From contig NZ_LR701479.1 of assembly GCF_902498745.1 (NCBI RefSeq), positions 2,931,060-2,995,059 of the forward strand: 64,000 nucleotides of DNA, read 5' to 3'. The DNA is from Erythrobacter sp. EC-HK427. Lineage in GTDB: Bacteria; Pseudomonadota; Alphaproteobacteria; Sphingomonadales; Sphingomonadaceae. The position numbers were made by a program, and so were the translations under genes. The notes under the pieces are model-generated. The model searched no databases, had not been told where the DNA came from, and saw only the letters and a program-made list of their open reading frames with translations. Of this stretch, positions 33,871-37,911 are shown piece by piece; position 1 is the stretch's first letter, and each line of letters opens with the position of its first letter.

Positions 33871-36489
33871 ATGACCACCCCGCCCCCGCTCCTTGCCGCC
33901 ATGCTTTTTTCGGGAACGTGGCGCGATTATCAGGCGCGGGTGCTGGCGGAGATGGACGGGCTGCTCGATGATGGCCGCCTGCATATCGTCGCCGCGCCGG
34001 GCAGCGGGAAGACGGTGCTGGGGCTGGAGGCGATGCGGCGGTTGGGGCGACCCGCCATCGTGCTCTCCCCCAGCCTGACGATCCGCAACCAGTGGCAGGA
34101 CCGGCTGGTGCCGCTCTTCCTCCCCAAGCTGGGCGACCACCGGGCGGAAATCTCGCGCGATCTCACCGCGCCAGGCAGCATGACGCTGGGCACCTATCAG
34201 GCGCTCCACGCCGCATGGAGCCGCAACGCGCCCTTTGCGGAGCTGGCTGCACTTGGCCCCGCCACGCTCATTCTTGACGAGTGCCACCATTTGCGGCGCG
34301 AGTGGTGGAACGCGCTGTTCGCCTTGCGCGATGTGCTGCCCGATCTCGTCATCGTCGCGCTCACCGCCACCCCGCCCTATGATGCGAGCGGCGGCGAATG
34401 GGCGCGGTACGAGCAATTGTGCGGCCCGATCGACACCGAAATCGGCGTGCCCGAATTGGTGCGCAATGGCGATCTCGCCCCGCATCAGGATTTCGTCCAC
34501 GTCTCCGATGCCGAGGGCGATCTGGTGCCGGTGCTGATGCGGCGGCGCGCGGCGGTGTTTGCGCTGATGGACGAGGTGATGGCCGACGCGGCGCTGCCCG
34601 CGATCATCCGCAGCCACCCCTTTATCGCCGAACCGTTCCGGCACGAGGAAGCCATCCTCGAAGCGCCCGAGCACCTCTCCGCCATGCTCTTCTATCTCGC
34701 CGCGCGCGAGGGCGCCGAGGCGCTGCCCGAAGAGCCGCTGGTGCTGCTCGGCGTGAAGGGGGAGCCGGTGCCCGAGTTCAACCATTTCTGGCTGGAACCG
34801 ATGCTCGAATGTCTGCTCCACCGCAATATCGGCCCATGGCGGCTGGAGGATGCGCGCAAGGAAGCGTGGAAGCGCGCGCTCTCGGCGGGCGGGCTGGTCA
34901 GCAACAAGCGGGTGGATTTTTCCGAAAGCGTCGATCTGGCGCGGGTGCTGGCGGGCAGCACGGGCAAGCTCGCCTCGATCACCGCGATTGCCCGCTGCGA
35001 GAGCGCGGCGTTAGGAGACGTGCTGCGGATGGCGGTGCTGTCCGACCATGTGCGCGCTGCCGAATTGCCCGCTTCACCCGATGCGCCCTTCGCGCCTGCC
35101 AAGCTGGGCGTGGTGCCGATCTTCGAGACGCTGCGCCGGGCAGGCATCGATGCGCCGCTGGGTGTGCTCACCGGAACGCTGGTGATCGTGCCTGACAGCG
35201 CGCGGGGCGTGTGCGCGGAGGCGGCGCAGGCGCTGCGCATTCCGTGCGATGATCTTACCTTCACCCCGCTCAAAGGCGCACCGGGATATTGCAAACTCGA
35301 CTTCGCGTCGGCGGCAGACCGGGGCCGCGTCGCGCTTATCACCCGGCTGGTCGAGCAGGGGCATATCCGCATCCTTATCGGCACGCAGGCGCTGCTCGGC
35401 GAAGGCTGGGATGCGCCCGCCTTGAACGCGCTGGTGCTGGCGAGCAATGCGGCGAGCTTTATGCTGTCCAACCAGATGCGCGGGCGGGCGATCCGCACCG
35501 ATCCTGCGCGGCCCGACAAGGTGGCGAATATCTGGCACCTTGCCACCCGTGATCCCACCGCGCTGGAAGGCCATGGCGGCGATGTGACGCGGCTGGAGCG
35601 GCGGTTCTCGATGTTTGACGGGATTGCCGAGGATGGCAGCGCGGTGATCGAGAATGGGATTGCGAGGATCGGGCTCGATCTGGCGCAGCCCGCCGCCACG
35701 CTCAACGAAGACACGCTGCGCCGCGCCTATGTCCGGCGCATCACCGCGGAGAGCTGGCGGCGATCCCTGGGTGCAGGCACTGCGCGGGCGCAAACGCGCG
35801 AGGTCGCCGAGGTGAGCGGCGATACCGGCAGCGCCAGCGTGTATCTGCGCGGCACGCTCCAATCCACCGTCCTCGCCAGCGTTGGCGGCGCGGTGATGAC
35901 GGCGGGGCTGAGCGTGCGCGGGCTTACCGACCTCGGCACAGTCGCGGCCATCGGCGGCGGGGCGGGAATGCTCTACGCCCTGCCCGGCCTGTGGAATTCG
36001 GCACGGCTCTGGCTGCGCAACGGCACGCTGGAGCGGCGGCTGCGGCAAGTGGCCGAAGTGCTGGTGGAAGGGCTGGCGCGGGTGGGCGCGCTGTCGCGTC
36101 CGGCGAGCGCCTACACGATCCGCGTCGAGGAGAGCCTGAAGGGCAAGCGCGCGGTCACTATCGAAGGCGGCACCCGCGCTGATGGGCACGCCTTTGTCGG
36201 GGCCTTTGCCGAACTGCTCGGGCCGGTGGAGAACCCGCGCTACATCTTGAAGCGCGAGGACAAGGCATTGGGCTTCCACCGTATCGATTACCACACCGTG
36301 CCGCAGGCGCTGGCCAAGCGGAAGGAGGATGCGGAGGACTTTCTGGCGCTATGGACGCACCGCATCGGCGCTGCGCGGCTGGTTTTCGTGCGCTCCAAAC
36401 ACGGCCGGCGCGTGCTGCTGCGCGCCCGCGCCAAATCGCTGGCGGCAGGCCTGCGCCGCCCGGTCGAGCGGCGCAGTATGTGGTTGTAA
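33871..36489 (+). CDS. SF2 DEAD/DEAH-type helicase with C-terminal membrane hairpin
   Basis: An 872-residue protein. The N-terminal half is a complete SF2 helicase: RDYQ (18-21), Walker A APGSGKT (42-48), DECH (136-139), TAT (165-167), motif V GEGWDAP (510-516) and motif VI QMRGRAIR (535-542). About 250 residues between the two RecA lobes form a large insert. After the helicase, residues about 664-706 hold two hydrophobic segments that could form a membrane hairpin, followed by a basic, beta-rich domain of about 160 residues that I do not recognise. A membrane-bound helicase is unusual; a DNA/RNA transport, repair or defence role are all possible. No nuclease motif is visible. It is 25 bases from the flavoprotein gene and 124 from the lipoprotein gene. 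Confidence 0.85.
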   Translation: MTTPPPLLAAMLFSGTWRDYQARVLAEMDGLLDDGRLHIVAAPGSGKTVLGLEAMRRLGRPAIVLSPSLTIRNQWQDRLVPLFLPKLGDHRAEISRDLTAPGSMTLGTYQALHAAWSRNAPFAELAALGPATLILDECHHLRREWWNALFALRDVLPDLVIVALTATPPYDASGGEWARYEQLCGPIDTEIGVPELVRNGDLAPHQDFVHVSDAEGDLVPVLMRRRAAVFALMDEVMADAALPAIIRSHPFIAEPFRHEEAILEAPEHLSAMLFYLAAREGAEALPEEPLVLLGVKGEPVPEFNHFWLEPMLECLLHRNIGPWRLEDARKEAWKRALSAGGLVSNKRVDFSESVDLARVLAGSTGKLASITAIARCESAALGDVLRMAVLSDHVRAAELPASPDAPFAPAKLGVVPIFETLRRAGIDAPLGVLTGTLVIVPDSARGVCAEAAQALRIPCDDLTFTPLKGAPGYCKLDFASAADRGRVALITRLVEQGHIRILIGTQALLGEGWDAPALNALVLASNAASFMLSNQMRGRAIRTDPARPDKVANIWHLATRDPTALEGHGGDVTRLERRFSMFDGIAEDGSAVIENGIARIGLDLAQPAATLNEDTLRRAYVRRITAESWRRSLGAGTARAQTREVAEVSGDTGSASVYLRGTLQSTVLASVGGAVMTAGLSVRGLTDLGTVAAIGGGAGMLYALPGLWNSARLWLRNGTLERRLRQVAEVLVEGLARVGALSRPASAYTIRVEESLKGKRAVTIEGGTRADGHAFVGAFAELLGPVENPRYILKREDKALGFHRIDYHTVPQALAKRKEDAEDFLALWTHRIGAARLVFVRSKHGRRVLLRARAKSLAAGLRRPVERRSMWL

Positions 36490-36613: not shown

Positions 36614-37135
36614 ATGAATTTCAAGGTCGCAACCGCGATTGCTATCGCTTCTGTCAGCCTGTCGGGCTGCGCAACTGTTCTCAACGGCGTGAATATGCCC
36701 GTCGAATTCGTGTCCGAGCCGGAAGGTGCCGGGGTCGAAATCCTTGACGGCCGCACCTGTACCGCTCCGTGCACATTCGAAATGCGCCGTGGCAATGATA
36801 CCATGGTGACCTTCACAGCCGCCGGATATGAACCGGTGACGATTTATATGCAAAGCCGCACCGGCGGCAGCGCGGCCGGTAACCTGATTGCAGGCGGCAT
36901 TATCGGCGGTGTGGTGGATGCCAGCAACGGCGCATCGAACTTCCTCGCTCCGCGCCCGGTCTACATCCGCATGGCGCGCGCCGGTTCGGGCGAACCCGCG
37001 CTGCTGCTGGACGAAGAAGGCGAAGTGATCTCCACCGTTTCGGAATTTAACGCCGAAGTCGCTGAAGACGTGCGCGAAGGTCTGGTCGGCCAGGGCCTCT
37101 ATGCCACCGTCGAAGACGTTCCGCCGGCTGACTGA
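36614..37135 (+). CDS. PEGA-like lipoprotein
   Basis: A 173-residue protein with a lipoprotein signal peptide and lipobox LSGC (cysteine at about residue 19), so anchored in a membrane facing the periplasm. Residues about 30-75 resemble a PEGA-type small beta domain (EGAGVEILDGRTCTAPCTFEMRRG with a cysteine pair). A glycine-zipper segment, AAGNLIAGGIIGGVVDA, lies at about 93-109 and may insert into membrane. Such proteins often appear in envelope loci; precise role unknown. AGGGG stands 11 bases ahead of the ATG, and a terminator follows. Relationship to the helicase upstream is not established. Confidence 0.8.
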   Translation: MNFKVATAIAIASVSLSGCATVLNGVNMPVEFVSEPEGAGVEILDGRTCTAPCTFEMRRGNDTMVTFTAAGYEPVTIYMQSRTGGSAAGNLIAGGIIGGVVDASNGASNFLAPRPVYIRMARAGSGEPALLLDEEGEVISTVSEFNAEVAEDVREGLVGQGLYATVEDVPPAD

Positions 37136-37323: not shown

Positions 37324-37911
37324 ATGATCGTTGAATTGGCCGAAAGGGCCGAGACCGCCCACAAGGTTGTCGATTACGTTGGGAAAACCGGCAGTTTTGT
37401 CGCCAATTCCAGCGCATCCCGCGCTTTCCGGCGATTCAACTGGGCGGCGTTCGAGCCTGTGATGAACCGATCAGGCAACCTTCGCGGCATGGTCGTCAAC
37501 AAGCGGATGCGCACAGTCTTCAATGTAACCAAGCCGTTGCGCGACGGTTTTGAAAAGCACAGCGGAAAACTTGCCTTCGCGGGAGCATTGATCGAGGTCG
37601 GCAAGGAAATGGGCCGCATAGAACGTGTCATGAATTCGAACATCGCCGATACGGAGAAGTATTCGCGCACGGTGATGCTCGGTGGTGCCGCTATACTCCG
37701 AAGCGTGACGAGCGTCGTGCCGTCAACCTTTGAACTCGCTTCGACCGCAGCGCAGGGTTATCTGATGCTCTATTCGGAGATTTCGGGAGATGCGTCAGGA
37801 ACGCAATTCGCCAAGAAGCTAGATGCATTCGACAAAGAAGTGACGGCAATTCACAAGCGGCAATGGGATGGTGAAATGTGGTACAATTGGGTCGAGGTGA
37901 ACTTGCCGTAG
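37324..37911 (+). CDS. hypothetical protein
   Basis: A 195-residue protein that I do not recognise. It starts with MIVELAERAETAHKVVDYV and has basic segments (SRAFRRFNW; NKRMRTVFNVTKP) in the first half, a small glycine/alanine-rich stretch (FAGALIEVGKEMG) and a second one (MLGGAAILRS) that could be weak membrane or amphipathic helices, and a tryptophan-rich end (KRQWDGEMWYNWVEV). Its codon and base use seem less GC-biased than neighbouring genes. ATG 37324 is chosen because GGGGGAG stands 8 bases ahead. It lies alone between a terminator and purC; acquisition by transfer is possible but unproven. Confidence 0.65.
   Translation: MIVELAERAETAHKVVDYVGKTGSFVANSSASRAFRRFNWAAFEPVMNRSGNLRGMVVNKRMRTVFNVTKPLRDGFEKHSGKLAFAGALIEVGKEMGRIERVMNSNIADTEKYSRTVMLGGAAILRSVTSVVPSTFELASTAAQGYLMLYSEISGDASGTQFAKKLDAFDKEVTAIHKRQWDGEMWYNWVEVNLP

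Follow-up and report, generated by a model that had tools for sequence, protein, structure and literature searches.

A family of one-gene XPB-like SF2 motors, probably membrane-anchored, with a C-terminal domain seen only there

A 64,000-nucleotide stretch of DNA from Erythrobacter sp. EC-HK427 (contig NZ_LR701479.1, positions 2,931,060 to 2,995,059; referred to here as the window) encodes an 872-residue motor protein of helicase superfamily 2 (SF2). The protein belongs to a coherent family of one-gene XPB-like motors that carry a C-terminal domain seen only in this family, are probably anchored in the membrane and have no fixed partner genes. SF2 motors are known, as are membrane hairpins, and it is their combination with this C-terminal domain that is new in the libraries and literature searched. 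No model in Pfam, PADLOC or NCBIfam matches the whole protein, and the open-access papers listed, judged by title and with most subscription journals outside the search, gave no cellular SF2 helicase with a membrane anchor of its own. In PMC7603488 the wording 'transmembrane helicase' denotes helices in an oxidoreductase. An earlier note, made from the sequence alone, had picked out this gene as a candidate for an undescribed system, and its choice holds up in that the family is real and broad and has no match as a whole in the libraries or open-access literature searched.

The motor, its hairpin and its C-terminal domain

The open reading frame (ORF) was confirmed as that of a genuine SF2 motor with a helical insert, a hydrophobic hairpin and a basic C-terminal domain. 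The core motifs that the earlier note had read are in place (PGSGKT, residues 43–48; DECHH, 136–140; TATP, 165–168; QMRGRAIR, 535–542), and the corresponding Walker A, DExH, TAT and QxxGRxxR patterns are kept in 84, 86, 82 and 87 of the 87 family members, the window protein included. The family alignment comprises 87 of 91 loci; L018 and L039 were removed for broken frames, L089 and L102 because they lie at contig ends. Pfam matches to ResIII (E 4.8e-15) and DEAD (E 1.7e-6), together with the four motifs and two RecA domains, place the protein in the ResIII/DEAD class of SF2 helicases and translocases. In eight longer homologues, scanned for fused domains, Pfam matches are confined to helicase, AAA-ATPase and SNF2-type domains.

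The AlphaFold2 model, built from an alignment of 66 members (the window protein and 65 of 77 full-length homologues), has a mean predicted local distance difference test score (pLDDT) of 91 and a predicted template modelling score (pTM) of 0.90. Its order is RecA1, helical insert, RecA2, a conserved segment, two long helices at lower confidence and a C-terminal α/β domain; the large insert noticed earlier is helical in the model and lies between the RecA domains (Table 1).

Judged by sequence profile and by model, the motor is most like XPB/Rad25 translocases. A search of the PDB with the 66-member family profile gave 33 rows, led by archaeal XPBII and RAD25 (E 9e-20 to 2.7e-18) with eukaryotic XPB next, and with Hef (E 1.8e-6) and RadD (E 2.8e-6) further down. 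On structural realignment of the whole model, TFIIH XPB, with Z 19.0–20.1 overall, takes nine of the ten first rows (Z 19.2–20.1, root-mean-square deviation (r.m.s.d.) 3.4–4.3 over 369–379 residues, about 18% identity), the best archaeal XPB rows reach Z 18.9–19.2 (r.m.s.d. 4.4–9.3), Hef 18.8 (r.m.s.d. 6.2), SNF2-type remodellers at most 17.1 and RadD 16.1 over 327 residues, rows within Z 1 of one another counting as ties. Superposing best on XPB chains, with Hef following, the motor falls into the XPB-like fold group; it is an equivalog of neither XPB (NCBIfam NF045503, 31.5 bits against a cut-off of 610) nor RadD (NF053632, 15.5 bits against 720).

With XPB/Rad25 proteins (archaeal XPBII, TFIIH XPB and bacterial XPB) the protein shares the SF2 motor core, to which it adds the large helical insert, the hairpin and a C-terminal domain without a significant PDB match. 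RadD (YejH) has the same core, as do Hef/FANCM and the RIG-I-like helicases, which carry a helical domain between or within their RecA domains; RIG-I-like receptors have a Hel2i insert and an RNA-binding C-terminal domain, whereas the window C-terminal domain alone finds no significant PDB match. No membrane hairpin is known in RadD, in Hef/FANCM or in RIG-I-like helicases.

Following the conserved segment are two modelled helices (pLDDT 57–82 in ten-residue blocks over residues 651–720) by which the window protein is probably tethered to the membrane as a two-helix hairpin. Because the window protein's own segments are only moderately hydrophobic, it is the family that carries this claim: a 19-residue segment of mean hydropathy at least 1.6 is present in the aligned hairpin region of 77 of the 87 members (window protein included), and 67 also have a second segment of at least 1.3. 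The two hydrophobic helices of the earlier note are there in the model, and the membrane hairpin that it proposed is supported across the family, but weakly by the sequence of the window protein taken alone. Five members lack a hydrophobic segment (L019, L022, L079, L088 and L098) and five more, including the window protein, lie in between. When the hairpin columns are kept out of the tree, the absences amount to four separate changes (L019/L022, L079, L088 and L098), so that the hairpin behaves as a removable anchor, a dispensable module and not part of the core. It is also the least conserved region (mean top-residue frequency 0.21 versus 0.57 for RecA1), as expected of a lipid-facing anchor. 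The combined frequency of Lys and Arg is 0.16 before the hairpin, 0.08 in its loop and 0.19 after it (76 subfamily-A members, four hairpin-less ones included); this positive-inside pattern, with the even number of helices, suggests that both ends of the protein are cytoplasmic.

The C-terminal domain, modelled alone, has a pLDDT of 90.6 and a pTM of 0.84, with the last nine residues below 50, and runs helix, two strands, helix, two strands, helix, strand, helix. It is basic in the window protein (31 Lys and Arg versus 17 Asp and Glu), and 72 of 76 subfamily-A members have a net positive charge there; its conserved residues include R790, Y791, P811, K818, R841, G845, R846 and R853. The earlier note could not place this domain, and neither could library searches: the best Pfam match for 48 members (the window protein and 47 of the 77 full-length homologues) has E 0.013, a PDB sequence search gave a single row at E 0.35, and none of 203 Foldseek rows against the PDB has E at or below 0.001 (best 0.64). 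Structural realignment reaches at best Z 6.0 over 67 residues. These negatives together are no proof of a new fold.

Searched with a profile of the domain, every one of 30 carrier handles (29 distinct genomes, G744 and G761 being the same place, and many of them members on which the profile was trained) gives a single match, always in a long, helicase-sized ORF. In a phylum sample it matches at least 4 of 398 genomes, the window's own included, in ORFs of 876–930 residues; three of the four (G000, G517 and G744) are known carriers, and the fourth, G926, also encodes the helicase (34.6% over residues 248–871). No free-standing copy was seen in the 30 carrier handles or the 398 phylum genomes, and the domain, without known relatives, is thus seen only in the helicase gene. 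A natural guess is that it binds nucleic acid; binding of lipid head-groups would be an alternative guess.

Table 1 Features of the helicase gene, its neighbours and its relatives (positions in the window unless a locus is named)
Feature	Position	Strand	Basis or remark
Whole gene: XPB-like SF2 translocase, probably membrane-anchored, 872 residues, ATG start	33871..36489	+	ORF, Pfam, alignment, model
RecA1 domain, residues 13–213	33907..34509	+	Pfam ResIII (residues 16–169), alignment, model
Helical insert between RecA domains, residues 218–384; conserved K366, I373, E377	34522..35022	+	Model, conservation
RecA2 domain, residues 385–560 (GTQALLGEGWDAP, QMRGRAIR)	35023..35550	+	Alignment, model, conservation
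Conserved segment after RecA2, residues 561–650; family-wide D571, N612, R622, W629 (W629 invariant)	35551..35820	+	
Probable membrane hairpin, helices 654–681 and 686–717	35830..36021	+	Model, hydropathy in 87 members, tree
Basic C-terminal domain, residues 720–872	36028..36486	+	Model, charge, no significant Pfam or PDB match, seen only within the helicase gene
Glycine-zipper lipoprotein	36614-37135	+	Downstream of helicase
195-residue ORF	37324-37911	+	Downstream of helicase
Helicase remnants in two relatives	L015:8642-9724 and L016:1335-2546		
hemB–hemF junction as fixed gain/loss site	L206-L219 (Flavobacteriaceae), L225-L242		

Distribution and family tree

Presence of the helicase is patchy at every rank sampled; with few candidates scored per genome (for example three in the phylum sample, four in the sample of the taxonomic family and nine in the search for the C-terminal domain), the tallies from the large genome samples are lower bounds. 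Matches were found in at least 5 of 199 genomes of the taxonomic family to which the window's genome belongs, three with intact copies (its own, G108 and G016) and two with remnants (G098 and G065), and in none of the three other sampled genomes of its genus. The class sample gave at least 3 of 289 genomes and the phylum sample at least 3 of 299, each including the window's own; the copy in G517 is reported with one in-frame stop. Of the remnants, that in G098 is an internal piece (residues 154–279) and that in G065 comprises the last 98 residues (775–872) in an otherwise unrelated frame.

Beyond the phylum, the best 80 of 175 loci from a scan of genome contigs, which is no census, include Bacteroidota, Bacillota, Actinomycetota, Omnitrophota, Thorarchaeota, Verrucomicrobiota and Chloroflexota. 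A quickly built tree, which carries a long-branch warning and in which 15 of 87 rows have no phylum label, groups the labelled rows by phylum beyond chance expectation: it requires 18 phylum-label changes versus 39.6 in shuffles, the least possible being 10, and changes above that minimum are no proof of transfer. The window protein groups there with G016, G108 and two Roseibium copies. From this patchy spread and phylum-wise grouping, the family looks old, often lost and sometimes transferred.

In Flavobacteriaceae, at least 19 of 149 genomes (that of the query included) carry the helicase, and in 13 of the 19 it sits between hemB and hemF. hemF is at most 1.6 kb away in 14 of the 19, the helicase strand being opposite to the hem genes in each, and small ORFs may intervene. 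The 20 genomes listed first among the 130 without the helicase include 18 in which hemB was found, with hemF within about 1.5 kb in 11 of these 18 and fewer than 130 bases between the two genes in seven of the 11; this is the same site without the gene. The earlier note would have counted homologues at a conserved housekeeping locus in all relatives, with no membrane prediction, against an undescribed system. Such a fixed site does exist in Flavobacteriaceae, between hemB and hemF, but homologues are absent from many relatives and the hydrophobic prediction holds family-wide.

Long matches also occur in four plasmid records, all of them large replicons that are typed as non-mobilizable. A first scan of IMG/VR found no relatives, and a second gave at least 62 loci, mostly covering part of one RecA domain; among the matches listed, four span residues 130 to 551–583 and none is near full length. 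Full-length copies in two faecal 'Bacteriophage sp.' records (L020 and L021) were considered as being of phage origin, which was rejected as the tree sets both among gut Bacillota; they are probably bacterial DNA.

Proposed role and alternatives

We tentatively read the protein as a stand-alone, membrane-anchored, ATP-driven duplex translocase that acts as an accessory genome-maintenance or envelope-stress factor, the biological role being the weakest inferred step. The motor, of XPB/Rad25 type, and the basic C-terminal domain would both lie in the cytoplasm, with the inner-membrane hairpin of two helices joining them. There the motor would take hold of duplex DNA close to the membrane and pull on it, with the C-terminal domain supplying a further contact, to DNA or to a lipid head-group, and the outcome would be DNA remodelled, or proteins stripped off DNA, at the membrane. 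By analogy with its XPB, RadD and Hef relatives, the substrate would be duplex nucleic acid, most probably DNA. A role in maintenance or envelope stress is favoured by the fixed Flavobacteriaceae locus, by a tree that largely follows phyla, by neighbours among which no defence family recurs and, anecdotally, by three loci of stress type. The family would then be a widespread membrane-tethered duplex translocase with its own tail domain, present in Bacteroidota, Bacillota and Thorarchaeota as well as in the window's genome, and would offer an experimental entry to the work of DNA motors at the membrane, be it in repair, stress response or defence.

Several observations weigh against this reading. 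The hairpin of the window protein is weakly hydrophobic, its helices having mean Kyte–Doolittle values of 1.43 and 1.22 versus 1.70 for a stretch of RecA1. The three loci with membrane-stress neighbours (L088, Tritonibacter and L082) are post hoc anecdotes among 91. Patchy presence, two remnants and fast divergence would be more in keeping with defence than with maintenance; the 13 other hem-site copies have 46–56% identity to the query where hemB, hemE and hemF keep 74–88%. Finally, Foldseek with the whole model puts RIG-I-like helicases, which sense RNA, in its first rows (LGP2 at E 1.2e-13, RIG-I and MDA5, over about 640–730 alignment columns), and a Dicer-related helicase (E 3.4e-4) is among the 33 PDB sequence rows, so that an RNA substrate is possible.

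Patchiness, remnants and fast divergence favour defence, and it is possible, if doubtful, that the protein is a single-gene antiphage or anti-plasmid system, in which the anchored translocase, stationed at the entry point of foreign DNA, would block, unwind or eject incoming DNA, or sense DNA and kill the cell via the membrane. Consistent with this are the scatter over many phyla, Thorarchaeota included, the sparse tallies in the window's taxonomic family and in Flavobacteriaceae, and the frequency of helicases in defence systems (PMC10952713, in the part seen). Against it stand the fixed hemB–hemF site, the largely phylum-wise tree, the large non-mobilizable replicons of the four plasmid records and the want of a full-length relative among the listed matches of the two IMG/VR scans. 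The PLD nuclease pattern is absent from the window protein and from 82 of 87 members. Nor does the protein classify as antiphage with PADLOC 2.0.0 (2023), in which its best row is PbeA (21.4 bits, E 2.1e-5, 60 residues) and its neighbours show no recurrent defence family.

Two sets of neighbouring genes bear on this point. The nearest set holds 148 genes picked from 275 candidates, of which 143 were scanned, and the next set 148 of 217, of which 144 were scanned. Both consist of mechanical ORF picks, some of them false, and cover genes of 90 to 650 residues outside the same 14 loci (window and Tritonibacter copies among them), the next set also omitting 12 Flavobacteriaceae loci. PADLOC found no recurrent defence family among the 143 nearest neighbours; the rows for mad3 (4), AriA (3), mad8 (3) and mad2 (2) probably reflect cross-matching by common folds of regulators, kinases or ATPases. 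The 144 next neighbours gave 72 PADLOC families, and 25 listed families have one member each, including a type I methyltransferase, PDC-S05 and PDC-S23. Single defence-type genes thus occur near some copies, which speaks for the antiphage alternative, but the defence-system context raised in the earlier note does not recur, and no defence island was found among these neighbours.

Mokosh, which the earlier note had named as a defence system with a membrane-tethered helicase, has a helicase and membrane features. Its types I and II are listed with PLD-like domains, type I also with NERD, in the part seen of PMC10952713. In contrast, the window protein has no Pfam row for PLD or NERD and no Mokosh row in PADLOC (E 0.1 in each case), and no HxKx4D pattern. 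A bolder form of the defence idea, which seems unlikely, is a single-gene membrane surveillance system in Bacteria and Thorarchaeota, in which the XPB-like duplex-DNA translocase, fixed to the inner membrane, would attack or sense phage or plasmid DNA at entry and the C-terminal domain would bind DNA and adopt a new fold.

The Foldseek and Dicer-related rows, together with the helical insert between the RecA domains, would fit a membrane-bound RNA helicase or duplex-RNA sensor at the inner membrane, RIG-I-like in outline. We consider this quite improbable: the RIG-I-like rows have template modelling (TM) scores of about 0.3 (by query length) and r.m.s.d. of 16–21, the sequence profile favours XPB by about 15 orders of magnitude, and XPB leads the realigned list. 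RIG-I-like chains are absent from the first 50 realignment rows, which carries no weight against RIG-I-like kinship. Little credence is likewise given to a motor for DNA uptake or segregation that would drive DNA, incoming or chromosomal, through or along the membrane; a hairpin joined to a duplex-translocase-like motor would suit it, but no competence, conjugation or division family is among the recurrent neighbours listed, and patchy presence counts against it.

Genes beside the helicase

The lipoprotein and the 195-residue ORF do exist downstream on the same strand, as the earlier note had described, and from the adjacency of the three genes in the window it had imagined a joint functional unit. 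Such joint action is highly improbable. In G103, a helicase-less sister species from the same genus, the lipoprotein (73%), the 195-residue ORF (62%) and purC (96%) keep their order. The lipoprotein is found in at least 15 of 198 genomes of the taxonomic family, the window's own being the sole overlap with the five helicase-match genomes, and the 195-residue ORF in at least 2 of 198, the window's own and G103. As for the two remaining genomes with an intact helicase, both searches list G016 as lacking a match, and neither has G108 among its matches. Since their order is kept in G103 and they do not track the helicase, the two genes are not its partners, and a general unit of the three is ruled out by this synteny and independent spread.

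Upstream in the window, the helicase starts 25 bases past the stop of a flavoprotein gene, with which it may share transcription; in G016 and G108 the flavoprotein lies far from the helicase. Scans of the window for tRNA genes and Rfam families gave no matches.

Across the family, the Pfam families met most often among the 143 nearest neighbours are ALAD (7), followed by coproporphyrinogen oxidase, ABC transporter ATPase and SMC_N with 4 each, and no family exceeds three among the 144 next neighbours. Recurring most, besides the Flavobacteriaceae locus, are two-component regulators, at 14 loci, and ABC ATPases, at 12, in varied positions and on varied strands; these are mere superfamilies and no specific partner.

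Individual loci show arrangements of their own. In a Gastranaerophilales bin (L088:9446-13504) a hairpin-less homologue is followed by a DnaJ-domain gene and PspA and preceded by an OmpH-like gene. The hairpin-less homologue of Tritonibacter (L019:3468-10322) overlaps by 4 bases a 145-residue gene without a Pfam match, and two DUF4178 genes and a spermine-synthase homologue adjoin it on the other strand. In a bin of uncultured Clostridia (L082:8159-12466), TelA, XpaC and a hairpin-bearing helicase follow one another on the same strand. In a Lentisphaerae bin (L102:8900-11818), 6 bases separate the end of a reverse-transcriptase gene (RVT_1, E 2e-21) from the distant homologue that comes after it and is truncated by the contig end. 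In two closely related gut bins (L045:9274-9972 and L073:9294-9992), a response regulator ends about 8–10 bases before the helicase on the same strand.

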